A program made the translations under genes and the position numbers. Shown piece after piece: positions 8,862 to 55,600 of a stretch of DNA of 64,000 bases (its first letter is position 1; each line of letters opens with the position of its first letter). A model generated the notes under the pieces. It did not search any database. It was not told the DNA's origin and worked only from the letters and a program-made list of their open reading frames with translations. The DNA comes from Omphiscola glabra (taxonomy: Eukaryota; Mollusca; Gastropoda; Lymnaeidae), in the NCBI GenBank assembly GCA_964017045.1, contig OZ024808.1, forward strand, positions 30,421,949 through 30,485,948. Reading direction: 5' to 3'.

Positions 8862-9412
8862 GGTGTCACTGCAGGTAGAGACTTGTAGCAAACACGATGT
8901 CACTGCAGGTATAGACTTGTAGCAAACACAATGTCACTGCAGGTAGAGACTTGTAGCAAACACGATGTCACTGCAGGTAGAGACTTGTGGCAAACACAAT
9001 GTCACTGCAGGTAGAGACTTGTAGCAAACACGGTGTCACTGCAGGTAGAGACTTGTAGCAAACACGATGTCACTGCAGGTAGAGACTTGTAGCAAACACG
9101 ATGTCACTGCAGGTAGAGACTTGTAGCAAACACGATGTCACTGCAGGTAGAGACTTGTAGCAAACACGATGTCACTGCAGGTAGAGACTTGTAGCAAACA
9201 CGATGTCACTGCAGGTAGAGACTTGTAGCAAACACGGTGTCACTGCAGGTAGAGACTTGTAGCAAATACGGTGTCACTGCAGGTAGAGACTTGTAGCAAA
9301 CACGATGTCACTGCAGGTAGAGACTTGTAGCAAACACGATGTCACTGCAGGTAGAGACTTGTAGCAAACACGGTGTCACTGCAGGTAGAGACTTGTAGCA
9401 AACACAATGTCA
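8862..9412 (-). repeat. 34-bp minisatellite, 16 copies, made of the SKI2 copy 1 stop-codon region
   Basis: GTCACTGCAGG recurs every 34 bp from 8865 to 9375, which is 16 copies. Read on the minus strand, each unit holds GTTTGCTACAAGTCTCTACC then TGCAGTGA. This is the coding end of the helicase (VFATSLYLQ then TGA). The right-most copy is the native end of exon 23, and the other 15 follow the stop codon as 3' UTR. The equivalent place in copy 2 (44437) is not expanded. Confidence 0.95.
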
Positions 9413-12400
9413 CGTCTGATGGATGTCATGGCGACCTGACATTTCTCCACCAGGGTCTGGTTCCCAATCAGTTCACCGGCAGCCTTGACCCTGGCCAACA
9501 CGTCATGTAGCGTTTGTATGCATTTAACAATAACGCCTTCCTGGACGTCTGTCAGTTGGGCGACCTCAGAGAAGGCCTGGAAGTGTAGTTTTGACGCGAT
9601 ATAAGACATCATTCCATTGACCCACCAAATGGCATTTCACAAAACACTAGAAGTATAATCTAGAAACTTCTCTTGAATTTGTATTAGGGTTATACTAAAA
9701 AGAAGTCTGATTATTTAAAACAAATTGTCTAAATTAGAGATCAAAATTGCACATGACTTATTATTCTTTATGTACAAATTAACATATAACAAGCTTATGT
9801 TTATTACTGGAATCTCCATCGGGAAAACTAAATGATATCATTAATCTCTGTTCTGACCATCAAGCCCACAGTGGAAAGAATATAAAAGGCACACAGAAAA
9901 GAACTCTACCTTTCCTAGGGCCCATTCATGCACCACTTGGGTCAAGCCAAAATGCATTTGTTTTTTCAAAAAGTCCACAGGAATCTTCATGCCAGCTTCT
10001 ACCTGGGAGGATCCAACCTTTTCAACAATTTCAAGGATGCGTTGTTTTCCCTGGAGAGTAGTGCACAAAAACACATTCTAATATCGTAGCTCTATTTTTG
10101 CCATGCCATTTTAAGAAGATTTCCTGCAATTCAACACCGAGTTTAAACTGCACCAAAAGACTTACTGCCCCACGTATGTTGCTTAGCAAAAGTCTAGACG
10201 GGCTTAGGGCTTAGCGAATGAAGTTTTGACAGCAGTACAGTACTCACGAAGCGTAGGGCGCCTTTCAAAGCTGGCTGCCTGCATCTGTTCGTCTCCAGCA
10301 CGAAGCAGCTGAGCAGGGCGGCGACTTCGGAAGGTTCAAGGTCAGTGAGCACGTTCTCCATGATGACCTCTGTCATGAGGACCTCGTGCTGCATCATAAG
10401 ACAGGCAAGGCGGCCCTTGAGTTGGACCATGTCGTCTTCGCTGATGTAATTGAGCCCTTTTAATACCTTTTAATAGATTGTTAAATTATGTATTGGATTT
10501 TAATTCGTTCTAAATAAGATAATTTTTCGTACAATTTCAATCCAACACACCCAACCAATTGACAGCCCCCATTGCCACTGTAACGCTGGAATGTGTTTTC
10601 TTTGGGTTAAAACGTGTATCTCTTTATATAGGACTATCCATGGTTCATCTCTTTATATAGGACTATCCATGGTTCATCTCTATATATAGGACTATCCATG
10701 GTTCATCTCTTTATATGGGACTATCCATGGTTCATCTCTTTATATAGGACTATCCATGGTTCATCTCTTTATATAGGACTATCCATGGTTCATCTCTATA
10801 TATAGGACTATCCATGGTTCATCTTTTTATATAGGACTATCCATGGTTCTTCTCTTTACATAGGACTACCTGTGGTTCATCTATTTATATAGGACTATCC
10901 ATGGTTCATCTCTTTATATAGGACTATCCAAGGTTCATCTCTTTATATAGGACTATCCATGGTTCACGAAGTGTTCTAAAGTTGGAATACTGCACACAAT
11001 TTTGTCTAAAATTTGATTTAATCTATTAAACATTGATGGCCCCTTGATTGGCTTTCTAGCGCATCAATAACGTGCCATCAGAAGTAAACCGTTACAATTT
11101 TAACTTCTCCCACTCGTATGTAAGATATACTTGATGTGTATTTAATGGAGGATGCAAGAAGAATGTAAGGAGCCTGAGATGTAAGCAGAAATTTCTGGTA
11201 TTTACACATTCAACGTATTACATTTGATTAGACGGTACACTTATAATTGTGTCAATTACCAAAATAACAGAACATGGGATTGTAGAGCGCTGACCCATGG
11301 TAAAAATCATACAAAAATTATTTTTAAAAGTCTCTACAATCAAAAAAGTTGGGGAACACTGGCGTATTACATGATTCAATAAAATGTACAAATGAAATGT
11401 GTGTTCAATTGAGTGTTGTACATTCTTGAGGTGACATAAAGTTCGAGATGGTACTTACCTGAACTCTCTGGTGGTACTCTGGAAGAAGTGCAAGGTAATC
11501 ATCGGAGGCGAGGTACTGGAGGTCCTTGTGTCGTTGGCGGATGCTTATGTTTCTGTCGTGTACGGTGAACTAAAGAGATCAGAAGATCATTGAGAGATCT
11601 TAGACTATTTGTTCAAAAATATTTAGTTTGATAGAGATTAAAGACTATTAATCTTGGTCTAAACATGTTTGGTTTTATAGAAAAAAATTCTTTGCTAGAG
11701 ATTCAATTGAACTGAAACTCACAACTCTAAGGACACGACCGACTCCACCCACTCCTACCACTCCACCCACTCCTACCACTCCACCGACTCCACCAGCTCC
11801 ATCCACTCCAAAACGATTACATAAATAATAGAAAGGAGATAAATGTGGGTAGATTTATCGTATAGGTGTTCTCTAGAGTCAGGAAGTTAAGAAATGTGGG
11901 TAGATATATCACATACGTGTTCTGGAGGGTCAGAAAATTATACGATGTAGGTAGATATATCACATACGTGTTCTCGAAAGTCAGGGCATCGCCGGCAGTC
12001 ATAGCTGTTAGTTAAACTGTCGAAGAGAAAGTTGACGGCTCGCCACTTCTCGATCACATCTGGGTCGCGTAGGTTCAGATCTTTGATGGGGTCGTACCCA
12101 CTGAGCCCCGTTGGGTGCTTCCGGCTGAGTAAGTGCAGATCTTTAATTAGGTTGTCAACAACATCACGAACTTTTCTGAAATAATAGAAATGAATGTATA
12201 GATACATTAAACAAATACACACACGCATTCAACATGTGCTGCAACCGATGTTTCAAACCTTTACCATTGCCACCGACAACTGAATTTTCCTCAGTTTAGA
12301 CCCCCCCACCCAAAAACAAAAAAACAAAAAACAAACATTTGTATAGGTACTAATGTTTAACATGTTTTATCGAATAAGCTGAAAATGTTTCTAAAACTTC

Positions 12401-15400
12401 TCAAACAAATTGTTGGAGCCATTGTACAACAAACTCCATGTTTATTTACACCTATCCTATCACAAACAAAAACTACCGAAAAATAGCCGTAACGCTAGTA
12501 ACTTGTTGGCCATGGGAGGGATGGGAGGGATGGGGAGGGGAAGAAGGGTGCTGTCATAGTTAAATCTACATGAATAAAGCTGTCAGTGTTAAAGCTGTCA
12601 GTGTTAAAGCTGTCAGTGTTAAAGATGTCAGTGTTAAAGATGTCAGTGTTGAAGGTGAAAGTGTTTAAGCTGTCAGTGTTAAAGATGTCAGTGTTAAACC
12701 TGCCTGTCATATCTAATTAGTCTGGCATGTCGGAGGGGTAGCAAAATGAATTCTCAAAGATGTCCAAAAAGTCAGAAAAGACTAAGATGATAAATGATAT
12801 TTATCATGATCTATAAATTGTTTATACTGCAAAGCATAACTTAATCAAAATTATTTATGTCAAGTCTGTCTACGAAGTATCTGTCTTTAAGATACTTAAC
12901 AATCTTTGGGATCCACAATACATTGTTGTCTCGAAGGGAAATTGTTCCTTTCACTTGATGAAATATTGATTTATCGAAGAGAAGGTATGTTATGAAAGTC
13001 TCCCGGGTAGAGATGCGTGTTTTAACACTACCCGACTAATATTATAACAGCTCCAACTGGCAGGTGTAATGTAGACGATAAACTAAATCTTGAAGTCTCA
13101 GCTGGCAAGTAAAGCTGGATAAACAGATTCGATTGAAATATTATCAGACATATCAACAACGAAAAGAAAGCTTTCACGACGTGCAAGGATAATCTGTCCC
13201 ACGAACTTTTTATCTCTGGGTTTTCCACCCAAGCCTTCCAGCAATAACGTTGCGTCAACATTGTGCACAATATGTGATATTCCGAGAATATATTTGGTTG
13301 AAAGGTCGACCACATCAAACCATGGCCGCGTTGGAGCTAACAGGTGGATCTGCTCCACCGGGTAAACACCTGGAACATTCAGAAAAAAAACAATATTTGG
13401 GGAAATGTTTTCCCTAATTACATTTAAAACATGCAGAAATAAGTATATGATATTAAAAAATAAGTATATGATATTAACAAATAAGCATATGATATTATCG
13501 TACTTCATATTTTATATGATTGAAATATTTTGTTTACTAATTCATTATTTTAGCGGCATTGCTGTAATGATGATTACTGGACATTACACTTTTATATGCC
13601 CTGGTGTAGTAGACAACTCTTTCAGGTACGTCTCTCCCTTTTTTAAATATCAGTTATTTCCCTTTTTCTTGTCGTTTTTGGCGCAGCTAACAGAGCGCAG
13701 CGAGTCGTGTCACAAGATGGGTGACTTTAAACTACACCTCCTTTGCCTATATAAGTTTAACTCACTGAATTTATTATCACGAATGCGCAAATTATTTCAT
13801 TGTTTGGGGTCAGACAATAATACATTTCGCCCCATCATAGATAATATCGGTTTTTAGAACGTTATTTCATTGTTGCCTTTCTAATCTCGACATGCTCCAG
13901 GAACACTTCGTAGCTTCCTCAGAAAGGATCGCGTGAGACGAAAAACTGGCGAGATTGACCTAGTGAGTGATGAACCATCTGTTTCAATTGCTTTACTAGC
14001 ATACAATTATTACTATTGCTTTAAAGTATATGGCTTTACATTATATTGCTTTAATAGTGTCGATCACTGATCAAAGTTGTAGAGATGAATTAATATGTAT
14101 CATCATTAGGGCACTTGTCACCACGAGAATGCCTTAATATGACTAGACATCAGAGCACTAGACATCAGAGCACTAGACATCAGAGCACTAGAAATCAGAG
14201 CACTAGACATCAGAGCACTAGACATCAGAGCACTAGAAATCAGAGCACTAGACATCAGAGCACTAGACTTCAGAGCACTATGCAGAGCACTAGACATCAG
14301 AGCACTACACAGAGCACTAGACATCAGAGCACTAGACATCGGAGCACTAGACATCAGATCACTACACAGAGCACTAGCCATCAGAGCACTAGACATCGGA
14401 GCACTAGACATCAGATCACTACACAGAGCACTAGACATCAGAGCACTAGACATCAGAGCACTAGACATCAGAGCACTAGACATCAAAGCACTAGACATCA
14501 AAGCACTAGACATCAGAGCATTAGACATCAGAGCACTAGACATCAAGTTTTCATGACATGACACTGACATACAATTCATATGTCTTATTTACCCGCCTCT
14601 CCTGAATCTGACTGTTGAAGTCGATCCGTCAAGACAAACGTTTGAAACATTTTCTCGTTTTGATCTAACACAGATGTTGACAGGAGGACACCAAGGGACA
14701 CTTGATTCTGTGGTCTCCTGACCATGATGATGCGACCAGGATGCATGTTTTCTACGCCCCGCGGGTGATTCAATATCACGGACTGTCGATACAATTATGA
14801 AAACAAACTATATGTAATAGATACATAAAAAATAAAAGTTATGATGAAATAGTCTTGACCACTGAGCCTCCGCCCCTCCCCAACTAGTTAACAAAAGAAT
14901 GAGTTATTATCTTTCGGTGTATGTATGATCTATGTATATATGATCTATGGTGAATGTATGATCTATGGTGTATGTATGATCTATGGTGAATGTATGATCT
15001 ATGTATATATGATCTATGGTGAATGTATGATCTATGGTGTATATATGATCTATGGTGAATGTATGATCTATGGTGTATGTATGATCTATGTATCTATGAT
15101 CTATGGTGTATGTATGATATATGGTGTATGTATGATATATGGTGTATGTATGATCTATTGTGTATGTATGATCTATGGTGTATGTATGATATATTGTGTA
15201 TGTATGATCTATGGTGTATGTATGATCTATGTATATATGATCTATGGTGAATGTATGATCTATGGTGTATGTATGATCTATGTATATATGATCTATGGTG
15301 AATGTATGATCTATGGTGTATGTATGATCTATGTATCTATGATCTATGGTGTATGTATGATCTATGGTGTATGTATGATCTATGGTCTTTGTATAATCTG

Positions 15401-16636
15401 TGCTTTATGTATTATCTGTGGTGTATGTATGATCAATGGTGTATGTATGATCTCTGGTGTATGTTTGATTTATGGTGTATATATGACCTATGGTGCATGT
15501 ATGATCTATGGTGCATGTATGATCTATGGTGCATGTATGATCTATGGTGCATGTATGATCTATGGTGCATGTATGATCTATGGTGCATGTATGATCTATG
15601 GTGCATGTATGATCTATGGTGCATGTATGACCTATGGTGCATGTATGATCTATGGTGCATGTATGATCTATGGTGCATGTATGATCTATGGTGCATGTAT
15701 GATCTATGGTGCATATATGATCTATGGTGCATGTATGATCTATGGTGCATGTATGATCTATGGTGCATGTATGATCTATGGTGCATATATGATCTATGGT
15801 GCATGTATGATCTATGGTGCATGTATGATCTATGGTGCATATATGACCTATGGTGCATGTATGATCTATGGTGCATGTATGATCTATGGTGCATGTATGA
15901 TCTATGGTGCATATATGATCTATGGTGTATGTTTGATCTATGGTGCATGTATGATCTATGGTGCATGTATGATCTATAGAATTATTGTTGAACCGTAACA
16001 CAAATAACTTAATTTATCTACTTGAGAGCACCAAAAGTTATCTATATCAATTTTACTGATCACAATCGATTAGTTATTACTCATTTCCTTAAATGTTTTT
16101 ATCTATAGTTACGACACAGTAAAGCAGTGGCGTGGCCAAGGTGGCTCTTTTTTTCTTAATATGCAGGGGCCGCTTTTTCGGATAATTTCGTAAGCTGTTT
16201 TCTTGGAAAGGGGCGTGGAAAATATTGTCCCGCCCCTGGTGGCACAAACCCTTGCTACGCCACTGCTGAATATAGAAGTGTTGATTTGAAGGCGCCAATG
16301 CTTAAATCTAAAGAGTACCAATGTTTACGCATAGAAACTAGATCACTACTATTCAAACAGTCAAACGACCTGCATGTACTCCTGCAGTCTGTAATACTCG
16401 ACACAGTCGGAGTGGTACTGGGCCAGGTCGATGCCACACAGGAAGCAGTGAATCTCTCTGATGTCCTCCAGCTGTGTCTTCACGTGATCCAGACTCTCGG
16501 CTACCGCCTTCTTGGTGTGGAACTCTGAGAAGCTCCTCTTCATCATGTCGTGCACTTTCAGCTGCTCCACCCTCAGCAGGTGGAGGATCATGGAGTACGT
16601 CAGCCGGAACCTGGATTCCAGGGGCGTTGGCTTACC
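9376..16636 (-). CDS. SKIC2 (SKIV2L): SKI2 copy 1, ratchet/arch and DSHCT C-terminal region (exons 16-23)
   Basis: Exon 16 has [15 protein letters not shown] and MMKRSFSEF, family hallmarks following the RecA core. Exons 17-19 cover the arch/insertion domain ([11 protein letters not shown], then [15 protein letters not shown]) and are the least conserved against copy 2. Exons 20-23 form the DSHCT region: [55 protein letters not shown]. Exon 16 ends at an unusual CAG|GTCGTTTG donor and exon 18 at a weak AAA|GTTCGT donor. Both are positionally matched in copy 2, and the phases require them. Confidence 0.92.
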
Positions 16637-19600
16637 CTGTTTAAAAAAAGTTGAGAGTATGCAAAACCGAGGCAAATTCTTCAATATTTTTTTGCAAATA
16701 AACGATTTTAAGTCATGTAAGATGCTTTTTTGCAATGCCATAAATGCTATGTTGTTACAAGGAAAAAATAGGTTTCATGATGGCTGCGGTTGTGTGGTTT
16801 AAACAAATGAGTGGGGATTTGGTAAATATCAAGTAACAATACAAGACATCCTAGTCGTAAAACATAAAGGTGTTTTTTAAAACAGAAATGTCACACCTGC
16901 TCCTTTTGTTACCCTATTGATACGCTCTGTCATACATGTCAATGGGTTCATACTCCCAGTTGAGTGCTACTCTGTCATACATGTCAATGGGTTCATACTC
17001 CCAGTTCAGTGCTACTCTGTCATACATGTCAATGGTAGCATACTCCCAGTTGAGTGTTACTCTGTCATACATGTCAATGGTAGCATACTTCCAGTTGAGT
17101 GCTACTCTGTCATACATGTCAATTGGTTCATTCTCCCAGTTGAGTGCTACTCTGTCATACATGTCAATGGGTTCATACTCCCAGTTGAGTGCTACTCTGT
17201 CATGCATGTCAATGGTAGCATACTCCCAGCTGAGTGCTACTCTGTCATACATGTCAATGGATGCATACTTCCAGTTGAGTGCTACTCTGTCATGCATGTC
17301 AATGGGTTCATACTCCCAGTTGAGTGCTACTCTGTCATGCATGTCAATGGTAGCATACTCCCAGTTGAGTGCTACTCTGCCATACATGTCAATGGGTTCA
17401 TACTCCCAGTTGAGTGCTACTCTGTCATACATGCCAATGGATTCATACTCCCAGTTGAGTGCTACTCTGTCATACATGTCAATGGGTTCATACTCCCAGT
17501 TGAGTGCTACTCTGTCATACATGTCAATGGTAGCATACTCCCAGCTGAGTGCTACTCTGCCATACATGTCAATGGGTTCATACTCCAAGTTGAGTGCTAC
17601 TCTGTCATACATGTCAATGGGTTCATACTCCCAGCTGAGTGCTACTCTGTCATACATGTCAATGGGTTCATACTCCCAGTTGAGTTCTACTCTGTCATAC
17701 ATGTCAATGGGTTCATACTCCCAGTTGAGTGCTACTCTGTCATACATGTCAATGGTAGCATACTCCCAGCTTAGTGCTACTCTGTCATAATGTCAATGCA
17801 TTCATACTCCCAGCTGAGTACAAATCTCTGTCATACATGTCAATGGATGCATACTTCCAGCTGAATGTTACTCTGTCATAATGTCAATGCATTCATACTC
17901 CCAGCTGAGTACAAATCTCTGTCATAATGTCAATGGTAGCATACTTCCAGTTGAGTGCTACTCTGTCATACATGTCAATGGGTTTATACTCCCAGTTGAG
18001 TGCTACTCTTTCATACATGTCATTGGTAGCAAACTCCTAGCTGAGTGCTACTTTGCCCTTCATGTCAATGGGTTCATACTCCCAGTTGAGTGCTACTCTG
18101 TCATACATGTCAATGGGTTCATACTCCCAGCTGAGTGCTACTCTGCCATACATGTCAATGGGTTCATACTACCAGTTGAGTGCTACTCTGTCATACATGC
18201 CAATGGGTTCATACTCCCAGTTGAGTGCTACTCTGTCATACATGTCAATGGGTTCATACTCCCAGTTGAGTGCTACTCTGTCCTACATGTCAATGGTAGC
18301 ATACTCCCAACTGAGTGCTACTCTGTCATACATGTCAATGGTATCATACTCCCAGTTGAGTGCTACTCTATCATACATGTCAATGGTAGCATACTCCCAG
18401 CTGTGTGCTACTCTGCATTAACATGTCAATGGGTTCATACTCCAAGCTGAGTGCTACTCTGGGCACAAAATGTGTGCAATTGCAGAGAGGTGTTTTTTTT
18501 TTTTAAATGGGATCATCGATAATGAAATTAAATATTGTCACAGCTGGACGCTTAATGTAGAGAAATGACATAACAAATAAGTGTTCAATAAGTTACGTTT
18601 ATAAGTGCTACAACACGTAAATGCTAGGCGTAGAGAATGTTAAACCGATATTTGGTGGGGGGGGGGGGGGTTTTTCAAAAGAATTGAACCGTTTTTTATT
18701 CAGGTGGGGAAAATTAAATTTGTTTCGTATTATTAAAGTAATGTCATGAAGACAATTCCATGACAGTTACGTCATACAAGCTAATAATGATTGGATTTAC
18801 TATTTACCAGTGCCATCCTGTGTAGGTGACCCATGTCGGGCAACTCCCCGTTGCACAGCACGATGACGGTGCCCGTGGTGTCATGCCCTCGCCGCCCGGC
18901 TCGCCCCGCCATCTGAGTGTACTCCCCTGAGTGGACAGGACGGAATGACTTGCCATCGTGCTTGATGACGCTGTCAAACACCACCGTCTTGGCCGGCATG
19001 TTGACGCCCATGGCAAACGTCTCGGTGGCCAAAAGAACCTACATTTATAAAGGTGCCATTACAATGTTCATAAATAAGATTCCAGTCTTTACCTTCTGAA
19101 TTTTTTATAAAAATTCAAATTGAAGCAGACTCATAACATTGACAGTACTACATCAACTAGTGCTACATGATCTAGTACTACATCAACTAGTACTAAATGG
19201 TCTAGTACTACATCAACTAGTGCTACATGATCTAGTACTACATCAACTAGTGCTACATGATCTAGTACTACATCAACTAGTGCTACATGATCTAGTACTA
19301 CATCAACTAGTGCTACATGATCTAGTACTACATCAACTAGTGCTACATGATCTATTACTACATCAACTAGTATTACATGATCTAGTACTTCATCAAATAA
19401 TTCTACATCATCTTGTGCTACATCAACTAGTACTACATAAACTACTGCTACATCAACTAATGCTACATGATCTAGTACTACATCAACTAGTGCTACATGA
19501 TAATAGTACTACATCAACTAGTACTAAATGATCTAGTACTACATCAACTAGTGCTACATGATCTAGTACTACATCAACTAGTACTACATGATCTAGTACT

Positions 19601-22600
19601 TCATCAACTAATTCTACATCATCTTGTGCTACATCAACTAGTGCTACATGAACTAATACTACATGAAGTAGCCCCGCACCTTAATCAAACCTTTCTGAAA
19701 CAGTATCTCAATCATCTCTTTAAAGATGGGCAGTATGCCAGAATGGTGGACACCAAAGCCTCGTTGTAACAGACCTGTCAGCTTGTGCACCTGGGCAGAA
19801 AAAAATTAATACATATCTATTTGATAGAGAAAAAGACGAAGACATTTTACAAGGTGTCTAGTGAAAAATAAACTTTCCAGACATTTTCCGATAAAGGTGA
19901 TATGCCTCACTTTACTTTGCATGTTTAAAAAAAAAAGATGTATGGACTAGCGTAAGTGACAGATAGGCACTGGAAGGCATTCTCGTGACAAGTGTAGAGA
20001 CTGGACAGTTAGCAGCGAAATTGATGCTCGTTACAAGAGAAGAGACTAGACAATAATCAGAGAAAGACATTCACATGAGCAGAGCACAGACTAAACAGTA
20101 AGCAGAGAAAGTGATACACACGACAAGAGCGGACACAATACAGTAGGCACAGAAGGGAATGCTTAATTTAAACTGTTATTGTGTGTAGTCTTGTGATAGT
20201 CAGCCTCTGAGAAATTTCATCCCAACTTCAAGGAAGGATAACGTGTGATACCTGCGGGAGTTCCCGATCCCTGGCTTGTATCTTAGACACACACTTGTCA
20301 ACAAACATCTGTATTTGGTGTTGCTCGGCCTGCGACGTCAGACAGAGATCTTTGCCGTACTTACAGATGACGTCAATTTTTTTCTTGGAAAAGATGAAGG
20401 CCACAGCTGGAAGTCTGTTTTCTTTCTGCATCATCTTGATGACAGATATCCATATTTTTCTGTCCTGTTTTGAGAATTATTAAATGAACAATACCATTTA
20501 CAACACCATACCCAATACCTTATATAATACCCATTAAAATACCGTATAAAATACCGTATAAAATACCCTATTTAATACCCAAAACAAGACACTGTTGAAA
20601 TATATTGAGAAAGTGTGACACAGAACATAGTTTTGAGATTAGTTTTTTCAGACCAGCTTCTCGAACAAATATGAAATGATTGAATTGTTGAATGCGCCAG
20701 GATTGAGGTTATAAGTTCAAACGTTTTATTGCGAGTTTCAAAACTTTCTTAAAATTGGGATCCTTTTTAAGAATTTCGATTTATTCATTTTTTCACATTT
20801 GGGCATCTCTTTAAAAAAAGGTTAGATGAATTTGTAAAGTAAATGCTTTATTATTTGGTTACCTGGGTTGCATAATTTGCAGCTTCTCTTCCTTCCAAAG
20901 TATCCCTGGCCTTGCTGTACCTTAAGAGAGAAAGGAAAGGTGAAGGTTGTGTAAGAGTGACAAGACACAAGTACAAGTGTAAACTTCTTATAACTGATAG
21001 GAAACAGTTGTGCAAGAATGACCAGATAAGAGTACAATTGTATAATTATTATAACAGACCACCAACCCTGGTACAAGGGTTTGTGATTTCAACAATAGAA
21101 TCCAAACAAAGGTTTAACACTAGTAACATTTAAAATATTGACGGTTTTGAAGGATACAAATGTCATCTCTAACATAACAGCTTAGCAGAACTTTTGCCTC
21201 TTCTGATATAGTAATGACAGAGTCAAATTTATTCCTGTCTTTTTAGACCGTGACAATCCATAAAGGAAGCACTCATTTCCTTATTCACGAAAAACTTAAA
21301 CATGCCACCAAAAAAAGAGGTCTATCATTATTTAGAAGTTCAAAACCATTTATTCACAACTTGTATGTTTCACTTCCTTTGAGCTGAACTCTCAACCAAA
21401 CTACATTGAACGGTCGTTATAACCAGACGTGTCATGTATTCATTAAAAAATGTATTGAAACACAACTAGTCAAGTATGTATAGTATACGTGCGTAAGGGA
21501 GTGCTGCTTCTATAACTGTATTAACATTACAGTGACTCACCCTTGTTCAAGAAACATGCTCTGTTCGTCTATGAACAAAAACAGTCCGTTGGGTACTCTG
21601 TCTGTTGTGACACCCGTGTACAGGAAGTGCTGAAGTGGTACAGGTCGTTCTGGAGTCGTTATCACAAAAATCTGTTTCCTTTTGATCCGCCTGTCAACAA
21701 GTATTTTTACTGGATATTGGCTGTGATTTATTTGTCTTTATAGTGTCTTGTTTAAAAATATTAAGGGCTGCAATAATTTATAATAGGTCTTAAGTGGTGC
21801 AGTAGTTTTTTGTACACTGGATCATAGTATTTTGAGAAAATGCCCTGTTGGGCAAGTGTTACGCACAAAAAACGAGTTAGCTTCTCATTTTCTCTAATAT
21901 GCAATGAATTCTACTGCCTTATGTCGTAGTGAGAGTGTACTGCCCTATGTCGTAGTGAGAGTGTACTGTCCTATGTCGTAGTGAGAGTGTACTGTCCTAT
22001 GTCGTAGTGAGAGTGTACTGCCCTATGTCGTAGTGAGAGTGTACTGCCCTATGTCGTAGTGAGAGTGTACTGCCCTATGTCGTAGTGAGAGTGCAATGCA
22101 TTCGTCAACCGTTTTTGTCAAGAAATAACCCACTGATAGGAACAGGAATTTGCCGGAGCCGGTAATAGAGATGACGTTGTACAAAAACACCTCGTCAGAG
22201 AAGTTATTGGCGTTGATTTAAAACAACGACTTACGAAACAACAGTCGCAGTTGCAATACCTTCCTGTACAAGGCAAACACTCACAGGTGCACACATGCCC
22301 GAAGTGAAAGGACCGCCCATGGCCCAGTTATAAGTGGTGTGCGGCCCCATTGCCCAGTTATAAGTGGTGTGCGGCCCCATGGCCCAGTTATAAGTGGTGT
22401 GCGGCCCCATGGCCCAGTTATAAGTGGTGTGCGGCCCCATGGCCCAGTTATAAGTGGTGTGCGGCCCCATGGCCCAGTTATAAGTGGTGTGCGGTCCCAT
22501 GGCCCAGTTATGTGTGGTGTGCGGCCCCATGGCCCAGTTATGTGTGGTGTGCGGCCCCATGGCCCATTTATGTGTGGTGTGCGGCCCCATGGTCCAGTTA

Positions 22601-33079: not shown

Positions 33080-33170
33080 AGCCTGCAATGTACACAGATA
33101 ACACTCAAACCTTCAATGTACACAGATAACACTCAAACCCTCAATGTACACAGATAAGACTCAAAGAAAT
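33080..33170. repeat. 28-bp repeat, 3 copies
   Basis: Copies of CACAGATAACACTCAAACC plus TTCAATGTA lie just upstream of SKI2 copy 1. Confidence 0.85.
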
Positions 33171-39564: not shown

Positions 39565-39940
39565 TGGAATGATATGTATAATTGAAAATGATATGTATTA
39601 TTGAAAATGATATGTATAATTGAAAATGATATGTATTATTGAAAATGATATGTATAATTGAAAATGATATGTATTATTGAAAATGATATGTATAATTGAA
39701 AATGATATGTATAATTGAAAATGATATGTATTATTGAAAATGATATGTATTATTGAAAATTATATGTATAATTGAAAATGATATGTATAATTGAAAATGA
39801 TATGTATAATTGAAAATGATATGTATTATTGAAAATGATATGTATAATTGAAAATGATATGTATAATGGAAAATGATATGTATAATTGAAAATGATATGT
39901 ATAATTGAAAATGATATGAATAATTGAAAATATGATAATA
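39565..39940. repeat. 19-bp AT-rich minisatellite, about 19 copies
   Basis: The unit is ATGATATGTATAATTGAAA with a TATTATTG variant. Confidence 0.95.
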
Positions 39941-40179
39941 AACACACGAGTATAGCAATGTTAACTACTTTTAAACTGTTAAAACGGTAACTCTTGAGTA
40001 GTCTCTAGATTTGCTTTAGATTGAACCATTTAAATATTCGCTAATCATTAGCAGATTGGACAACTCAAGTATGTGTTAGTTAGTGACGAGGTAAACACAT
40101 TTTACACAAATTTAGATGCCTAATTTAAATCAAAGGATTTTTTAATTTTGATAACTTTTAATGAAGAGTATGTTTTAAC

Positions 40180-43100: not shown

Positions 43101-43880
43101 TCACACACCAAATTCATCACACACCAAGTTTATCACAGACCAAATTCATCACACACCAAGTTCATCACACACCAAGTTCATCACACACCAAGTTCATCAC
43201 ACACCAAATTCATCACACACCAAATTCATCACACACCAAGTTCATCACACACCAAGTACATCACACACCAAGTTCATCACACACCAAATTCATCACACAC
43301 CAAGTTCATCACACACCAAATTCATCACAAACCAAATTCATCACACACCAAATTCATCACACACCAAATTCATCACACACCAAGCTCATCACACACCAAA
43401 TTCATCACACACCAAGTTCATCACACACCAAGTTCATCACACACCAAGTTCATCACACACCAAGTTCATCACACACCAAGTTCATCACACACCAAATTCA
43501 TCACACACCAAGTTCATCACACACCAAATTCATCACACACCAAATTCATCACACACCAAGTTCATCACACACCAAGTTCATCACACACCAAATTCATCAC
43601 ACACCAAGTTCATCACACACCAAGTTCATCACACACCAAGTTCATCACACACCAAGTTCATCACACACCAAGTTCATCACACACCAAGTTCATCACACAC
43701 CAAGTTCATCACACACCAAGTTCATCACACACCAAATTCATCACACACCAAGTTCATCACACACCAAATTCATCACAAACCAAATTCATCACACACCAAG
43801 TTTATCACACACCAAGTTCATCACACACCAAGTTCATCACACACCAAGTTCATCACACACCAAATTCATCACACTCTAGT
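40180..43880. repeat. Large 16-bp tandem array, about 230 copies (3.7 kb)
   Basis: The unit is TTCATCACACACCAAG with a major A variant at the last base (CAAATTC against CAAGTTC). The left 500 bp has extra variants (TTCATTACAC, CCATGTTC). The unit has no stop in any of the three plus-strand frames, so a 610-aa open frame with a 16-residue period appears. It ends abruptly at CACACTCTAG. It lies between the 5' end of copy 1 and the 3' end of copy 2. Confidence 0.97.
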
Positions 43881-44225
43881 TTTTCTTGTTTTTTTTTGTT
43901 TATTTAACTACTTCAATGATGAATAGAACATAATTAAATATGGTCATTAATTTTAATGAAAATAGTAAAATTGATAAATTTATGTAGATATTTAAATTGA
44001 AGCCATCGTCAAGAAATGTTTAATAATAATATAACTAATACATATATATATATATAAAGAGAGAGAGAGAGAAATGCGTGAAATAATTTCTTAATTAAAA
44101 TATATATAACACAACTAATTCATATATAAATCGAATATATAAAGAATACAGATCTTATATTATGCAAAGACCTGTAGTTAATTCTTTTGTAATGCAACTT
44201 ACACTGATTTTAACTTTCAAAACTA
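43881..44225. other. AT-rich spacer with microsatellite
   Basis: No gene. A short (TA)n(GA)n tract lies at 44040-44072. Confidence 0.6.
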
Positions 44226-44375
44226 AATTCTAACTTGCTGCCAACTCTCACTTGCTGCAAACTCTCACCTGCTGCCAACTCTCACCTGCTGCCAACTCTC
44301 ACCTGCTGCCAACTCTCACTTGCTGCCAACTCTCACTTGCTGCAAACTCTCACATGCTGCCAACGCTCCCAAAAT
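44225..44375. repeat. 17-bp minisatellite, about 9 copies
   Basis: The unit is CTGCCAACTCTCACCTG, about 60 bp beyond the stop codon of SKI2 copy 2. Confidence 0.93.
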
Positions 44376-44436
44376 GTCACAGCGTGTGAGAGAAGTTTAA
44401 ACCAAAACAAATATCACTGCCTAAAAAATTCTTACA

Positions 44437-47400
44437 TTAAACACAGGGTCCCTGCAGGTAGAGACTGGCCGCAAACACAATGTCGCGTCTGATAGCTGTC
44501 ATGGCGGCCTGGCATTTCTCAGAAAGGGTTTGGTTTCCGATTAGCTCACCAGCTGCCTTGACCCTGGCCAACAAGTCGTGGAGGCTCTGGATGCAGCTGG
44601 TGATGACTCCCTCATCGGCGTCAGTCTGAGTCATCAGATCAGAGAACGCCTGTCAAAAACATTGTCATCAATCAGAAAATGCAAAACAATAACAATTCCT
44701 TTTTTTCTCACTGAAAATGAAAACTTAAATTGTAAACAAAGACATTGATAAAATCTAAAACAATTACAACATGCTCTAATCATGTGACAACACACTCTAA
44801 TCATGTGACAACACACTCTAATCATGTGACAACACACTCTAATCATGTGACAACACACTCTAATCGTGTGACAACACACTCTAATCGTGTGACAACACAC
44901 TCTAATCATGTGACAACACACTCTAATCATGTGACAACACACTCTAATCATGTGACAACACACTCTAATCATGTGACAACACACTCTAATCATGTGACAA
45001 CACACTCTAATCGTGTGACAACACACTCTAATCGTGTGACAACACACTCTAATCATGTGACAACACACTCTAATCATGTGACAACACACTCTAATCATGT
45101 GACAACACACTCTAATCATGTGACAACACACTCTAATCGTGTGACAACACACTCTAATCATGTGACAACACACTCTAATCATGTGACAACACACTCTAAT
45201 CATGTGACAACACACTCTAATCATGTGACAACACACTCTAATCATGTGACAACACACTCTAATCGTGTGACAACACACTCTAATCGTGTGACAACACACT
45301 CTAATCATGTGACAACACACTCTAATCATGTGACAACACACTCTAATCATGTGACAACACACTCTAATCATGTGACAACACACTCTAATCATGTGACAAC
45401 ACACTCTAATCATGTGACAACACACTCTAATCATGTGACAACACACTCTAATCATGTGACAACACACTCTAATCATGTGACAACACACTCTAATCATGTG
45501 ACAACACACTCTAATCATGTGACAACACACTCTAATCGTGTGACAACACACTCTAATCGTGTGACAACACACTCTAATCATGTGACAACACACTCTAATC
45601 ATGTGACAACACACTCTAATCATGTGACAACACACTCTAATCATGTGACAACACACTCTAATCATGTGACAACACACTCTAATCATGTGACAACACACTC
45701 TAATCATGTGACAACACACTCTAATCATGTGACAACACACTCTAATCATGTGACAACACACTCTAATCATGTGACAACACACTCTAATCATGTGCATGTT
45801 GATCCAATCAGATCTATTGTCTTGTTTGCTTCACAATCTTATACAGCATGCTTGTGGTGAGTTGTTGCAATATGATGCAGGCAGTTTGGATGCTAGAACT
45901 ACATGTATTAGCAACTTCATATTAACCTTTCTTAATGCTATACACTAGTGAAAATAAAATTTGAATATTTAAACAAGCTTTCGTAAAATCACACAGAACA
46001 AGATGTTGTAAAAGGAAACAATCTGTTGTAGAGTGAAACACGCTGTTGTAAAGGAAAACGAGCTATTGTAAAAGGGAAATAAGATTTTGTAGAGGGAAAC
46101 AAGCTGTTGTAAATGGAATCAAGATATGTTAAAAGGAAACAAACTGTTGTAAAGGCGAATAAGCTAATGTAAAGGGAAACAATCTGTTGTAGTGGGACAC
46201 CTGCAGACGTTGTTATTGGTTACCTTTCCATTTGCCCAGTCATGCACCACTTGGGTCAAGCCAAAATGAAGTTCATTTTTTAAGAACTCAACTGGAATCT
46301 TCATGCCGGTCTCAACCTGCAACATTCCAACCTGCTCAACAAGTTGAAGAATGCGCTGTTGGCCCTTTAATGAAATATTACAGAAAAACAAAAAAATTGT
46401 GGAATTCATGTATATGAAAGTTGACTTTATAAATGTAATTAAGTACATAAAATAATTAAAGGTGAGCGGGGAAAATGCAATATAATTGAGTTCAATCAAA
46501 TCGGGATTCCCGGCATTCAAAGAAAGATACTATCGGATAATGTGTGGAAGACAGAGGCGTAGTTAAGGGCGGGAAGAGTGACAGATGTGCCCGGGCGCCA
46601 GACTATTTAGGGGCGGCAAAATGTGCTTTGATATTATTTTTGTATCAAAATAATGGGTTCGAGAGTTGAAAAAAGAAAAGGAGGCTCTTTAAAATGAATC
46701 TTGTCCCCGGGCACCAAACAGTCTAGCTACGCCTCTGGTGTGATATCAGTGTACTGCTTTTCGATGTTATTTTTTTCTGAGCTGCCATGCCGGGTCCCGC
46801 CGAGTCACGACGATGATGTTGAAACAGTGGCGTAGCGATCTTAACTCGCGCCCGGGGCACAATACCTTTTTAGCGCCCCCCAATACCTTTTTAGCGCCAC
46901 CCCCCTATTCGAAACCATACAATATTATAGTAAAATATACCATTTGGCGCCCTTTGTGAGTAGCGCCCGGGGCATGATGCCCCCCTTGCCACACCCTCAC
47001 TACGCCACTGTGTTGAAACTAGAACAAGAACTCACCTTTTCCAAAGCTCCTCTCAAAGATGGCTGCCTGTTCGTGTCTCTCTGCAGCACAAAGCAACTGA
47101 GCAAGGCGGCGATTTCTGTAGGTTCAAGGTCAGTGAGCACGTTCTCCATGATGACCTCGGTGATTACCACCTCGTGCTTTATAAAACAGCAGGCGACCCT
47201 CGCCTTGATCAAGGTCACGTCCCTTTCACTGATGTACTGAAGTTTTCTCAAAACCTGAACATGTTGAATGTAAGCATTTATGTGACAATGATTTTGTTTG
47301 ATTTATTTGTGCTTGACAAATGTATCGGACATTTTTCTGAAATATTTTTCTATTTCCAATTTTTTTTTAAATAACAATTTATTCTGTTCTTTTTTTGCAT

Positions 47401-49609
47401 GATATTTTCCCCCGCAAATTATTTTAAGATAAGGAAACTAATTCGCTTAAAATTGATTGTACATGTATAAAGACTTCTTTTAACAATTCAAAAACAAAGA
47501 GATTGTTTTCATGAACTTGTTTCAGTATTTTATATGTTCAAATTAGCTCCCTTGTGGCATTAGTAAATGTAAGTGTCTTTAAAATGTAACTAGGCATAAA
47601 CTTTAAAATGTAACTAGGCATAAACTTTAAAATCTAACTAGGCATAAACTTTAAAATGTAACTAGGCATAAACTTTAAAATGTAACTAGGCATAAACTTT
47701 AAAATGTAACTAGGCATAAACTTTAAAATGTAACTAGGCATAAACTTTAAAATGTAACTAGGCATAAACTTTAAAATGTAACTAAACATAAACGCTGTCA
47801 CGTGCAATTAAATAAAGATAAAGTCTTCAACGTTACATTCGCATCATCAGGAAGTTACGCGTGCATGAGTTAACCTAGTGGTCGGCAAACCGCGGCTCGC
47901 GAGTCATATGCGGCTCTTTAGCGATCTGAGTGCGGCTAGGCCAGCCGGCCACAAATCGGGTTTGACTCTGAAAAACATGGTTCTTGTCAGTTTCGTGAAA
48001 GGAAATTTGGCTCACAAAAATTTTAATCCATTGTTGGCTTCCATCATTCAGGAAAATAAAAAAAGGGGGGGGGGATAAACGTTTTGTATAAGGGCAATTC
48101 TTTGACGAGACTTTTAGAAAAAAAAAGTTAACAAATGTTAAGTTGCACATGAATTACCTGTACTCTCTGGTGGTACTCTGGGAGTAAACACATGACTTAC
48201 CTGTACTCTCTGGTGGTACTCTGGGAGTAAACTGAGGTATTCTTCAGAGGCGCGCTTCTGGAAGTCGGTGTGCTTTTCTCTGAGGCTCGTGTTCCGATCA
48301 TGTACATAGAACTTGAGAAATGACGTAAGAGAAGTAGAAGGTAGCAGAGACGAACAATGAGGCAGCTTATAGTGGACTAAATAAAAATAATGATATCTAA
48401 AAATAGAATATACATTATTAGGGATGTAAAGGTATCAACAATCCAGTCATGTGACTGAGTATCATTAACTCGTTGTGTTACAGTATGTATCATGTATCTT
48501 GACCTTAAGTAGCAGCCTACATTTTTTTAAACAGATGTTAACTTTGTTCAGGGATTTGTCGCTTGGCTCTGACATAATCATCCTCTGATTGAGCCCAAAA
48601 TAAACACAAAACGTCGATAAAATGTCAAAGTTAGGATAGACAAAATTTAATCAATTCTAACATGATACTAGAGCTCTTGGCAGTGATATGATAGAAAGAA
48701 TTCCTACATACATGTTCACGGAATTGAGGACAACGCCTGCAGTTATAGTTGTGTGTCAGTAACTTCCTCCACAAGGAGCAGATGGCTCCCCATTGGCTGG
48801 CAAGTTCGATGCCTTGTTTCTCCAGATCGCTGAAGGTCAGGTGTGAACTTAGCCCGTAGCAGAAGTGGCAACTAAGCTGATGCAACGTCAGAATAAGGTT
48901 GTGAATGATATCTGGCAGGTATCTATGTTTAAATGAAATCATGAAATATTATAATGAGCTTCCCTATGAATTATTATTGTTCATTGTTCAATAAAATGAT
49001 GCATTACGACAATGCCTGCAACAAAACCTGCTGAAACACATTGAACAAACCTCTGATTCGTTGTGATCTGTATCTGTTCCAAACATCTAAGGACACTGTT
49101 TGTTTTCAGTGAGTCCATCACCAGACCTGTCACACCAAATATGTCCTTAGTGGACAGCTCCACCACCTCGTACCAGGGGCTCTGTGCTATGTACATCGTA
49201 CACATCTCGACAGGGTGGACACCTGGAAGTCGAGACACTTTTCAGGTTTAAAACAATATTTGAAGATTTACAAGTCATGTTTATCTTTAGATGAAAACAA
49301 CTTTTAGCATTTCAAACTCAATGTTTAATGAGAAGAAACGTTAAACGAATATAATGCTATGACATGTGTTTGTTTCTGTGATTGTTTGTTGTATGATTTT
49401 TTTCTTCAATTCCACTTACCGACGTCGTTGTGAGATTGCTGTATAAAATAATCTCTCAAGATGAACGTTTTAAACTTTGTTTCATATTTCTCCGTCACGT
49501 AGGTTGCCAGGAGGACACCAAAAACAATTTTATTGGTAGGCTTTCTGACCATCAAGACACGCCTGGGGGTCATGGCTTTGGCCACCCTTGGAAGATTCAC
49601 GAATTGTGC
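44437..49609 (-). CDS. SKI2 copy 2, arch and DSHCT region (exons 17-23)
   Basis: Exon 17 begins AQFVNLPR against SVILNHPR in copy 1, then RRVLMVRKP. Exon 18 has [13 protein letters not shown]. Exon 19 has [13 protein letters not shown]. Exon 20 has [10 protein letters not shown]. Exon 21 has [20 protein letters not shown]. Exon 22 has [12 protein letters not shown]. Exon 23 has [13 protein letters not shown], then GPCV and TAA. The divergence concentrates in the arch, the part that in SKI2/MTR4 helicases contacts RNA and partner proteins. Confidence 0.92.
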
Positions 49610-52600
49610 CTGTGGGTGTCGTATGATGGAAAGTACGATGAATAAAAAAAAGTCATCCTTATTTAAACTGGGCTTCCCCAACTCCCCCCACACCAATTTG
49701 CGTTCTGATAAATGCATTTTTAAAATTGTTAAAATATGTTTAATTTCTTATTATGTTTTTTAACGTAATAAAATTTTAACATGTACGTTTCTACTTGGAT
49801 AAAGAAGCGCGGTAAATTAACAAGGAATATGTTAACGTTTCAATCAATTCAAAGAAAGTTCTCATTTCATCATATTTTTAAACAACTTATTATATCTATG
49901 TTGTTAAGGACTACAATGTATATTGTGATTGCCTGTTGTTTAGAGATTATATGTGTTGTTTTATCTATTTGCTTAGTGATTGCCTGTTGTTTAGAGATTA
50001 TATGTGTTGTTTTATCTATTATGCTTAGTGATTGCCTGTTGTTTAGAGATTATATGTGTTGTTTTATCTATTTGCTTAGTGATTGCCTGTTGTTTAGAGA
50101 TTATATGTGTTGCTTTATCTATTATGTTTAGTGATTGCCTGTTGTTTAGAGATTATATGTGTTGCTTTATCTATTATGCTTAGTATTTTGTGACGTGTTT
50201 GTGGTTAAGGAAAATGACTTACCTGTTGTGTAAAGGTTTGTTGTGATCATGTCATGGCAGTTGACGATTTAGTTGTGTTAATAAAGATACTGTGTTCTAA
50301 TAATCAATGGTTTGTGAATTTAATATAATTAACCCCTAGACTTAAATTTTCAAACGACCTGCAATTGTTCATGAAGTCTGTAGAACTCCACACACTCTGC
50401 ATGATACTGAGACAGGTCCTTTGAGCACGGGTAACAGCGGATTTCCTTGAGGTCTCCCACCTGTGTCTTGACGTGCTGCAGCTCTCTGAAGGACTCCCTC
50501 TTTGTGTGGAACTCTGAGAAACTTCGCTTCATCATGTCGTGAACTTTGACCATCTCTACCCTCATCAGGTGGAGGATCATGGAGTACGTCAGACGGAACT
50601 TTGACTCAAGGGGGGGTGGGATGCCCTGTTTGAGTCATTTGTTGTTGTGGTGGGAGGGTGGGGTGGGTGGAGATTGAACAATGGTATAGTTTTATGCACG
50701 TTTAAAATGTATCATTAAACTTTGGATGTTTGTATACTTGTGTATATGTCAAACTTAACTCTTTTGTTGTCAACTTCACAATGTCATTGAGTATCCTTTA
50801 TACCTTGATTAACCCATTAATTTTACTCAACTTAGTTTTACATTTTCGAATGTAAAACTTCATATTTTTTTCGGGCAACATACTTTCAAGTCGGTTATCC
50901 AAATAGTTGGAATAAAACTAAAAACTTATTGAAGACTTTACGAATCTGTTACATTTACCAGCGCAATTTTTTGTAGATTTTCCAAATTCGGCACCTCCCC
51001 ATTGCACAGCACTATGACGGTGCCCGTGGTGTCATGGCCTCGGCGCCCTGCTCGTCCAGACATCTGAGTGTACTCGCTTGACAGCACGGGCCGGAGCGCC
51101 TTCCCGTCAAACTTCATCACACTCTCAAACAGAACTGTTCTGGCCGGCATGTTGACGCCCATGGCGAAAGTTTCCGTAGCTAAGAGAACCTAGGACAAAA
51201 AAAAAAGATTACTTAAAAAAACTTAACCAACGTACGGAGGTGTATCTTTATTTCGTAATAACCAACAAACATTAGATATGTTAGGATAGCAGGGTAAGCG
51301 TTATCTCAAGGTGCCCAAACGACGTTAGAAAGAGCCCCTTACACTTTGTAAATTAATATATTTGTGTAGTGTTATTCGTTACAAAGAAAGACAACCCACT
51401 TTCTAGAATATTCAAGAAAATGTAGGTTGCTCACCTTAACCAAGCCCTTCTGAAACAGAATCTCAATCATCTCTCTAAACATGGTGAGTATCCCGGAGTG
51501 GTGCACGCCAAATCCTCTTTGGAGGAGATCAGTTAGCATTTTTACCTACAGAAACAAATATAAAACCAATTTGGGTCGGAGAGTAAAAATATATAGAGCT
51601 GCATTCTTACAAGTCAACACAATAGTTTAAATGTCAAGTTAATGGGATAAGTCAACTTATTGGATAAGTCAACTTAATTAATAAGCCAATTTAATGATTA
51701 AGTCAACTTCATGGTAAAGTCCAAGAGTAGCAATAAAAGAAAGAATCAAGTAACATATACAGTTCAAATCATTATTTCTTGTCCAAGAGTCCGGCTAAGT
51801 CGGTCAACTTCAAAACATTGATGACTGATCAAACTCCAGACATATGTTGTGACCCCCTGCAGTTGGTCAGAGGGGTCAAGGTAACGGTGGGACATGCCGG
51901 TCGATGAAATGGATGGACATAAGGGTCAAGGTAATGGTTCGACATACCAGTCGATGTAATTTTTGGACATAGGGGTCAATGTAATGGTTGGACATAGGGG
52001 TCAAGGTAATGGTTTGACAAGGAGTCAATGCAATGATTGGACATAGGGGTCAAGGTAATGGTGGGACATGCCGGTCTATGAAATGGTTGGACATAAGGTC
52101 AAGGTAATGGTTGGACATAGGGGTCAATGTAATGATTGGACATACCGGTCGATGTAATGGTTGAACATAGGGGTCAGTATAATGGTTGGACATAGGGGTC
52201 AGTGTAATGATTGGACATACCGGTCGATGTAATTGTTGAACATAGGGGTCAGTATAATGGTTGGACATAGAGGTCAATGTAATGATTGGACATACCGGTC
52301 GATGTAATGGTTGATATAGGGGTCAGTATAATGGTTGGACATAGGGGTCAATGTAATGATTGGACATACCGGTCGATGTAATGGTTGACATAGGGGTCAG
52401 TATAATGGTTGGACAAAGGGGTCAATGTAATTATTTGAGTTGAGGTAATGGCCAACAGCAAGCGAGATGGCTTTGGGTAATTGTGTCACAGGATACGGTT
52501 CTTCCCAGCAGTGACACAATTTGATGTGTACCAGGGAAACTCATTGTGATTTCTCCGCTTCCCGGTAGCATTTTATGTTCTGCCGTGCAAGCAACATGAT

Positions 52601-55600
52601 CAATCAACGTGATCCATCAACGTGATCCATCAACGTGATCCATCAACGTGATCCATCAACGTGATCCATCATCGTGATCCATCAGTGTGATCCATCAACG
52701 TGATCCATCAGCGTGATCCATCAACGTGATCCATCAACGTGATCCATCAACGTGATCCATCAGCGTGATCCATCAGCGTGATCCATCAGCGTGATCCATC
52801 AGCGTGATCCATCAGCGTGATCCATCAGCGTGATCCATCAGCGTGATCCATCAGCGTGATCCATCAGCGTGATCCATCAACGTGATCCATCAGCGTGATC
52901 CATATTCCAAAGCCATTATTTAGATAAGTGCTGCTCCAGAATTCTACTCCTATCGAATCGTGCAAGGATCAGATCAATAAAACTCCATCCCAAACATCCA
53001 GGCGAAGCACTGGTTCTGCTGGTACATAGCATCTGAAACTTCAATACTTACCTGTGGCAGCTTGTGGTCCCTGGGCTCTAGCCTGGTCAGACACTTGTCA
53101 ACATACTACCTGTGGCAGATTGTGGTCCCTGGACTCTAGCCTGGTCAGACACCTGTCAACAACTTACCTGTGGCAGCTTGTGTTCCCTGGGCTCTAGCCT
53201 GGTCAGACACATGTCAACAACTTACCTGTGGCAGCTTGTGGTCCCTGGGCTCTAGCCCGGTCAGACACATGTCAACATACTACCTGTGGCAGCTTGTGGT
53301 CCCTGGGCTCTAGCCCGGTCAGACACATGTCAACAACTTACCTGTGGCAGCTTGTGGTCCATAGGCTCTAGCCTGGTCAGACACATGTCAACAACTTACC
53401 TGTGGCAGCTTGTGGTCCCTGGGCTCTAGCCTGGTCAGACTCTTGTCAACAACTTACCTGTGGCAGCTTGTGGTCCCTGGGCTCTAGCCTGATCAGACAC
53501 TTGTCAACAACTTACCTGTGGCAGCTTGTGGTCCCTGGGCTCTAGCCCGGTCAGACACATGTCAACATACTACCTGTGGCAGCTTGTGGTCCCTAGGCTC
53601 TAGCCTGGTCAGACACTTGTCAACAACTTACCTGTGGCAGCTTGTGGTCCCTGGGCTCTAGCCTGGTCAGACTCTTGTCAACAACTTACCTGTGGCAGCT
53701 TGTGGTCCCTGGGCTCTAGCCTGGACAGACACTTGTCAACAACTTACCTGTGGCAGCTTGTGGTCCCTGGGCTCTTGCCCGGTCAGACACATGTCAACAT
53801 ACTACCTGTGGCAGCTTGTGGTCCCTAGGCTCTAGCCTGGTCAGACACCTGTCAACAACTTACCTGTGGTAGCTTGTGGTCCCTGGGCTCTAGCTTGGTC
53901 AGACACTTGTCAACAACTTACCTGTGGCACCTTGTGGTCCCTGGGCTCTAGCTTGGTCAGACACTTGTCAACAACTTACCTGTGGCACCTTGTGGTCCCT
54001 GGGCTGTAGCTTGGTCAGACACCTGTCAACAACTTACCTGTGGCAGTTTGTGGTCCCTGGGCTCTAGCTTGGTCAGACACTTGTCAACAACTTACCTGTG
54101 GTAGCTTGTGGTCCCTAGGCTCTAGCCTTGTCAGACACCTGTCAACAACTTACCTGTGGTAGCTTGTGGTCCCTAGGCTCTAGCCTGGTCAGACACCTGT
54201 CAACAACTTACCTGTGGTAGCTTGTGGTCCCTGGGCTCTAGCCTGGTCAGACACTTGTCAACAACTTACCTGTGGCAGATTGTGGTCGCTAGGCTCCAGC
54301 CTGGTCAGACACTTGTCAACAACTTACCTTTGACAGATTGTGGTCCCTAGGCTCTAGCCTGGTCAGACACTTGTCAACAACTTACCTGTGGTAGCTTGTG
54401 GTCCCTAGGCTCTAGCCTGGTCAGACACTTGTCAACAACTTACCTGTGGCAGATTGTGGTCGCTAGGCTCTAGCCTGGTCAGACACTTGTCAACAACTTA
54501 CCTTTGACAGATTGTGGTCCCTAGGCTCTAGCCTGGTCAGACACTTGTCAACAACTTACCTGTGGCAGCTTGTGGTCCCTAGGCTCTAGCTTGGTCAGAC
54601 ACTTGTCAACAAACGAGCTGATTTCCTCCCGCTCGGACTGTGACGTCAGACTAAATTGAGTTGTGTAACTTGTTATATCGTTGATCTTCTTCTTGGAGAA
54701 ATAGAAGATCACGGCAGGGAGAGTCTTGTTCTTGCGTATCATATTGATGACCGACTTCCAAAACTGTTTTTCCTGTGGTGGAATTTTAAAGCATTATATT
54801 TATATGCCAATATTTCAATACATTTCTCTATCTCTCTCTCTTTTTATCTCGCTCTACAGTTTGCAATGATGAACTAATAGTTTAGAGCAGTGATTCCCAA
54901 AGTGGTCTATATCGACCCCCAGGGGTCTACGACAACTTGCAAGAGGTCTATGTTAGCGGAAAAAAAATTGGGGGTCCATGAAATGAAAATGGGGGTCCAT
55001 GAAATGAAAATGAGGGTCTAAATTAGTGGATCTCATGTAAACCGGTAGTGATTTCTATTTTGGCATTCCATGAATGGAATAATCCACATACACAGATAGT
55101 ACCTTTTTAATTCCATAATACTATCTTACAATATAAAGACATATATCTTCCTACATAAATTATAAAAGTACATATAAAAGTAAAAATGTTAAATATCATG
55201 TTAGTTTCTTTGCTATTTCTCGGTTAATCTTTTTAAGAGCTATTTTTTTTTAAACTTTCATGGAAGAGCGGTACAACATTGCTTATAAGCGAAACCAACT
55301 TTGTTTGAGAGTGCCGGAGAAAGGTAAGAGCATTATATTTTTTATTTTTTTAGTTTTGTGCTCGTTGTTAGCAAAGATAGATAAGTTACGCCAATCAGCA
55401 ATTCTGGCTTCAAAAAGACATACATGTTTCTTATCCCGTATTATCGCAAGAAAGTATTTAATTGCTTTTCCATCCTCATACCTAGTGGAAAGGGGTTTCA
55501 GCGCAGTTACCAATCCCCTAACAACAACAAAAAAGAAACAAACTGGACATCATTAACCGAGGAGATTTGAGATTAAACCTAACTAAACTGATGCCAAGGA

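Follow-up and report, generated by a model that had tools for sequence, protein, structure and literature searches.

Tandem arrays fill 49% of the 64-kb window of snail DNA, and several of them repeat the end of a coding exon together with its splice donor. Why should minisatellites within one pair of genes take in the ends of exons at several donors and the beginnings of exons at no acceptor? The sequence-only reading of this locus offered two possible causes, a mutational process acting at exon-intron boundaries or selection among the duplications that arise there. In the current study, we rebuilt the genes, compared all resolved donors and acceptors by the same tests, and weighed these causes against chance and against a function of the arrays.

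The helicase gene pair and its arrays

The window is animal DNA that carries two genes for SKI2-like helicases in tandem on the minus strand (Table 1), and the two are strongly diverged paralogs. We assembled gene models manually, relying on exon anchors, GT-AG signals and phase, and checked them against Lymnaea protein P0001. Reading is open with matching phases through exons 1-23 of copy 1 and exons 11-23 of copy 2, the 5′ part of which would fall outside the window. The best match of copy 1 was P0001 of Lymnaea stagnalis (83% across the entire query by BLAST), which makes a lymnaeid or a close relative the likely source of the window. When the two proteins were aligned globally, 1029 of 1195 aligned residues agreed; the corresponding figure for copy 2 is 459 of 753. 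A second Lymnaea SKI2 protein, P0008, is more distant from both copies (577/1194 and 341/751, respectively). Exon 18 of copy 1 has a weak donor, GTTCGT, yet its junction is ungapped against P0001, and the least certain acceptor is that of copy 1 exon 5, where P0001 shows a gap. Two SKI2-like proteins are listed for each of Lymnaea (P0001, P0008), Biomphalaria (P0002, P0006) and Physella (P0068, P0004), which suggests an expansion of the helicase in freshwater snails.

Table 1. Helicase genes of the window and the arrays found at their donors and stop codon (e, exon; a slash marks the exon-intron boundary).
Feature	Positions	Strand	Unit (bp)	Copies	Content
Copy 1, SKI2-like helicase gene	9376..33021	(-)			23 coding exons, 1220 residues + stop; hand-built model
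Copy 2, SKI2-like helicase paralog	44437..60717	(-)			Exons 11-23
Copy 1 e1 array	32819..32937	(-)	47	2.5	Final 21 exon bases + donor ACT/GTAAGT
Copy 1 e4 array	30028..30160	(-)	45	3.0	Final 39 exon bases + GTAAGC
Copy 1 e10 array	23893..24235	(-)	37	about 8.5	Final 14 exon bases + GTAAGG
Copy 1 e19 array	11841..11985	(-)	51	2.8	Final 17-18 exon bases + GTATGT
Copy 2 e13 array	53046..54612	(-)	58	27	Final 52-53 exon bases + GTAAGT
Copy 2 e20 array	48146..48232	(-)	43	2.0	Final 32 exon bases + GTAAGT (copy two GTAATT)
Stop-codon array, copy 1 exon 23	8857..9413	(-)	34	16.4	Last codons + TGA (9376-9378)

Other parts of the window are repetitive as well. Between the two genes lies a 3.7-kb array (40184-43874) of about 230 copies of a 16-bp unit, which is open in reading frames of up to 1020 codons and can mislead gene predictors. 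Two separate arrays of 38-bp units (37164-37304 and 38603-39224) look alike by eye. On the plus strand, positions 399-5695 likely hold an ankyrin-repeat/SOCS-box gene, with Pfam matches in its second exon only; about half of its single intron consists of arrays, and an array begins 37 bp past its stop codon. Its one donor and one acceptor, read from the sequence, both lie outside arrays detected by Tandem Repeats Finder (TRF), and were left out of the counts of 34 donors and 35 acceptors given below.

Six arrays had been described as containing an exon tail with its GT donor and a seventh as containing a stop codon, and both descriptions proved accurate. In the six, the duplicated segment takes in 14-53 bases of exon together with the donor, and the surplus copies always lie on the intron side. 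The units of the e4 and e13 arrays reach only about six bases into the intron, ending just past GTAAGC and GTAAGT. Surplus GT donors with at most two mismatches from the first number 1, 2, 11, 1, 22 and 1 (e1, e4, e10, e19, copy 2 e13 and e20, in that order), the count of 11 for e10 being inflated by G/T-rich sequence; the e1 array has a single intact surplus donor. TRF places the e10 array at 23893-24206, and we extended it to the exon by sequence identity. In the seventh array, the stop codon of copy 1 begins 36 bases from the array edge, and the C-terminus that this array encodes is identical to that of the Lymnaea homolog. The earlier reading also called the six donors functional, a term that can be kept as an expectation from homology and not as one based on RNA.

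A single spreading repeat family was rejected as the source of the seven arrays, in line with the earlier reading, given that the units differ in length and 19 of 21 unit pairs are no more alike than shuffled sequence. That the units are wholly unrelated needs a qualification: two pairs (copy 1 e19 with copy 2 e20, and copy 1 e4 with e1) share a short match, reached by 0 and 2 of 200 shuffles, respectively, that is not accompanied by unit-wide similarity. Assembly stutter is argued against by the differences of 0-6 bases from the consensus among the e13 units, and by there being no unit common to the seven arrays. Variants are shared between e13 units, suggesting turnover of copies within that array. 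Finally, an array at 58592-60010, the unit of which contains CCAG/GTAGG, was considered as a hidden exon 12 of copy 2 and rejected; exon 12 itself, which lies at 56519-56576, has the correct phases and is free of arrays.

Donors compared with acceptors

All 34 resolved donors and 35 acceptors of both gene copies were treated alike. When 40 bases centered on each boundary were slid over ±4 kb, a local duplicate (32-40 of 40 matches) was found at exactly six donors. The other 28 donors reached at most 23 matches, and none of the 35 acceptors was duplicated (at most 25 matches). A second, symmetric test compared exon tails with the downstream intron and exon heads with the upstream intron; the six array donors scored 26-96, the remaining 28 no more than 19, and the exon heads of all 35 acceptors no more than 23. 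Five of the six array donors lie within the coordinates that TRF itself gives. The TRF array at e10 begins 16 bp beyond the donor, which nevertheless lies inside a unit by sequence, as 26 of the 26 surrounding bases recur in the array. The earlier statement that no acceptor lies in an array holds for minisatellites (0/35) and fails for one short duplication. When the TRF threshold is relaxed to score 30, copy 1 exon 21 becomes the sole case of an acceptor with a duplication, a 2 x 10 bp repeat (TATTAAAAGG, 10456-10475, TRF score 40) that is far shorter than the minisatellites. Twelve donors are common to the two gene copies; an array is present in one copy at three of these and in both copies at none, suggesting that the arrays arose after the gene had duplicated and fitting independent origins.

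The contrast between 6/34 donors and 0/35 acceptors is significant by Fisher's test (P = 0.011) and by a two-sided sign test of 6:0 (P = 0.031). It depends on how an array is defined: P rises to 0.025 if the five donors inside strict TRF edges are taken, and to 0.055 if the exon 21 duplication is counted (6 vs. 1). Comparison with introns depends on the measure. The share of donors in arrays, 18% (6/34), is below that of intron bases, 48%, in plain base coverage. We therefore used a seeding null with one seed per array, in which the seeds of 42 intronic arrays may fall in a collapsed intron length of 19,172 bp or across any of 34 donors or 34 acceptors. It predicts 2.1 straddling seeds per boundary class, so that six donors are an enrichment of about 2.9-fold (P = 0.017 for at least six, P = 0.056 for at least five), and zero acceptors have P = 0.12. 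At TRF score 30, 2.3 are expected, with P = 0.026 for at least six donors and P = 0.09 for zero acceptors. The test is post hoc and covers one window with two related genes; read accordingly, it shows a modest signal that lies in the donor excess, and this single window does not justify a claim that acceptor arrays were lost. The refutation test proposed by the earlier reading thus comes out mixed inside the window, the donor excess being significant and the acceptor absence not, and both causes that it offered still stand.

Could the pattern be an unlucky draw, in which some of 42 intronic arrays straddle boundaries and six happen to do so at donors and none at acceptors? About two seeds per class are indeed expected by chance, the absence from acceptors is not surprising in itself, strict TRF edges bring the seeding probability to 0.056, and the pattern was picked for being striking. 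Against this, at least six donors, the donor-acceptor contrast and the sign test all fall below 0.05, and we consider chance an improbable explanation. The donor-only pattern is real and well-defined, and statistically modest.

No array lies wholly within the 5950 coding bp, whereas seeding as dense as in the introns would give about 13, and this absence fits strong purging of duplications in coding sequence. Copy number is three or fewer in 4/6 donor arrays vs. 10/36 of the others, a difference that is not significant (P = 0.16).

A mutational process that favors exon ends with strong donors as starting points of tandem duplication, selection not being involved, would account directly for six donor arrays where uniform seeding gives 2.1. 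Examples of such a bias would be a change in composition or pairing of the nascent RNA with its template. It draws further support from the donors themselves, five of the six array donors containing GTAAG vs. 4 of the 28 others (Fisher P = 0.0024, post hoc). However, other measures of donor strength separate the two groups poorly (U1 matches, P = 0.06; U1 duplex energy, P = 0.35), and the 36 intronic arrays away from boundaries show no sense/antisense bias in donor motif (means of 5.06 vs. 5.08 of 9 matches, P = 0.91). The same 36 arrays led us to reject donor-like motifs as a property of intronic arrays generally, none reaching 8/9 matches on either strand. Moreover, longer units are expected to straddle boundaries anyway, and they do so here, with a median unit of 46 bp in boundary-straddling arrays vs. 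25 bp in the others, as the random-seed model predicts. On this evidence, we regard a purely mutational bias as rather unlikely.

Consequences of using a downstream donor

Comparison with Lymnaea indicates which donor would form the exon end. P0001 joins without a gap at five of the six junctions (copy 1 e1, e10 and e19; copy 2 e13 and e20), and beside the sixth, copy 1 e4, the Lymnaea protein is gapped. The donor nearest the exon is the one implied by the Lymnaea protein and is predicted to be the one used, and intron positions appear unchanged relative to that protein. Use of a downstream donor would be costly in most arrays. Unit length is not a multiple of three in four of the six, and an in-frame stop at +1, +9, +18 or +27 precedes the next donor copy in four (e1, e10, e19 and e13); in copy 2 e20, the 43-bp unit would shift the frame. 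Since five arrays would thus yield stops or a frameshift, the first donor must carry most of the splicing if the gene works. Copy 1 e4 alone is open and in frame, and each unit retained through use of a downstream donor would lengthen the protein by a 15-residue peptide. At 30028-30185, the tail of exon 4 is present as in-frame repeats of this peptide. A short peptide repeat of different sequence (GGPQHSG/DPHHSG) occupies the corresponding place in the Lymnaea homolog, so that in both snails this exon end may be evolving through repeats.

In classical in vitro work, the intron-proximal of two equal donors was often favored. A minisatellite with multiple splice donors in the human gene IFI6 (6-16) was reportedly described by Turri et al. 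in 1995. According to a more recent account of that gene, downstream repeat units are used and give alternative mRNAs (PMC4526556). In Caenorhabditis elegans unc-73, a weak /G/UU donor doublet was duplicated by engineering 18 bases downstream, and the upstream original is reported to be used more (PMC8865678). The snail arrays resemble that of IFI6 in lying at an exon end and in having units that are splice donors, but differ in that all except copy 1 e4 would produce stops or frameshifts from downstream units.

By analogy with IFI6, it could be argued that the snail arrays are functional, their surplus donors giving alternative splice forms or extra binding of U1. The e4 array, being open and in frame, would yield 1, 2 or 3 copies of its peptide, and in the e13 array GT is kept in 27/27 units and GTAAGT in 23/27. 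Yet 35 of the 58 positions of the e13 unit are invariant, so that retention of GT does not demonstrate constraint, and we found no sign of constraint on the e13 surplus donors. The coding cost of downstream use in five of the six arrays, and the lack of any array retained in both gene copies at the 12 shared donors, argue further against a function, which we consider very unlikely.

Boundary minisatellites and a proposed selection filter

Canestro et al. are said to have introduced the name 'mirages' in 2002 for repeats in amphioxus Adh3. Mirages have been described as minisatellite-like tandem duplications that span exon-intron boundaries in Adh3, with units of 10-72 bp, and in the globins BflGb6 and BflGb9, where 5′ and 3′ boundaries are both affected and that of BflGb6 lies at an acceptor boundary (PMC3087553); similar repeats are reported from amphioxus PGBD5 (PMC3902484). 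At all six snail donors, the units of the array likewise span an exon-intron boundary and carry splice signals, an exonic part and the signal being repeated into the intron, and unit sizes overlap. By this comparison, the snail arrays belong to the known class of boundary-spanning minisatellites. They differ in affecting six donors and no acceptor, in occurring six times in one gene pair with up to 27 copies, and, likely, in their molluscan host. Restriction to donors is not a general rule for this class, given that amphioxus mirages are found at 5′ as well as 3′ boundaries. Internal tandem repeats at exon-intron boundaries, with possible novel introns, are also reported in human genes of segmental duplications (PMC2812944). 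These share with the snail genes the expansion of boundary minisatellites in duplicated genes, which are recent duplicates in the human case; there the repeat may become a new intron or stay in the exon, whereas the snail introns appear to have kept their positions. Among the titles and abstract beginnings listed by searches of the open-licence literature, and in passages of one paper on cone-snail introns, we found no report of boundary minisatellites in molluscs, and a literature search on co-transcriptional order likewise found nothing. The new points are the density of arrays in one gene pair, the donor-only distribution and, likely, the phylum.

We give an even chance to the explanation that the donor-only distribution reflects selection filtering a tandem duplication process active across the gene pair, leaving mirage-type minisatellites. 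Tandem duplication would seed arrays everywhere across the pair, and duplications inside coding sequence would be purged. Duplication of an acceptor would put an extra acceptor upstream of the original; being transcribed before it, the extra site would enlarge the exon, and such duplications would be lost. Duplication of a donor would place the surplus donor downstream of the original, where it would be left in the intron. The original donor, transcribed first, would be committed first and the mRNA would be unchanged. Donor arrays would thus survive, the first transcribed donor being the predicted winner and the extra donors remaining intronic; the copies could then expand within the intron by unequal exchange or slippage. 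A mild extra tendency for seeding at donors may contribute.

In favor of such a filter are the donor-acceptor contrast, the absence of coding arrays, the stops and frameshifts expected downstream, the ungapped Lymnaea junctions and the unc-73 precedent. Against it, pure filtering predicts the intron seeding rate at donors, and we observed six donor arrays vs. 2.1 expected at that rate. The acceptor absence is not significant alone, and the contrast weakens with the array definition. In addition, the acceptor mirage of amphioxus BflGb6 indicates that acceptor arrays can be tolerated, IFI6 uses donors in its repeat units, and the frequent preference for the intron-proximal donor in classical in vitro work points the other way. 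A stronger version of the filter is that, in a minisatellite-rich snail genome, the transcription order of splice sites is written in the DNA, donor arrays accumulating to as many as 27 near-perfect copies and acceptor arrays being purged, as the first donor wins; such a genome would amount to many natural competition experiments between tandem donors. We put this forward tentatively, as a somewhat unlikely proposal.

For gene prediction, these arrays are a warning that tens of perfect decoy donors may trail a real one. They would add a mollusc to the hosts of boundary minisatellites. Should the donor-only bias hold genome-wide, the snail would offer natural substrates for competition among tandem donors, with two to 27 near-identical donors per intron, and would let one ask how an exon end is picked among equals. 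Intron gain and exon shifts could then also draw on such arrays, as has been proposed for amphioxus.
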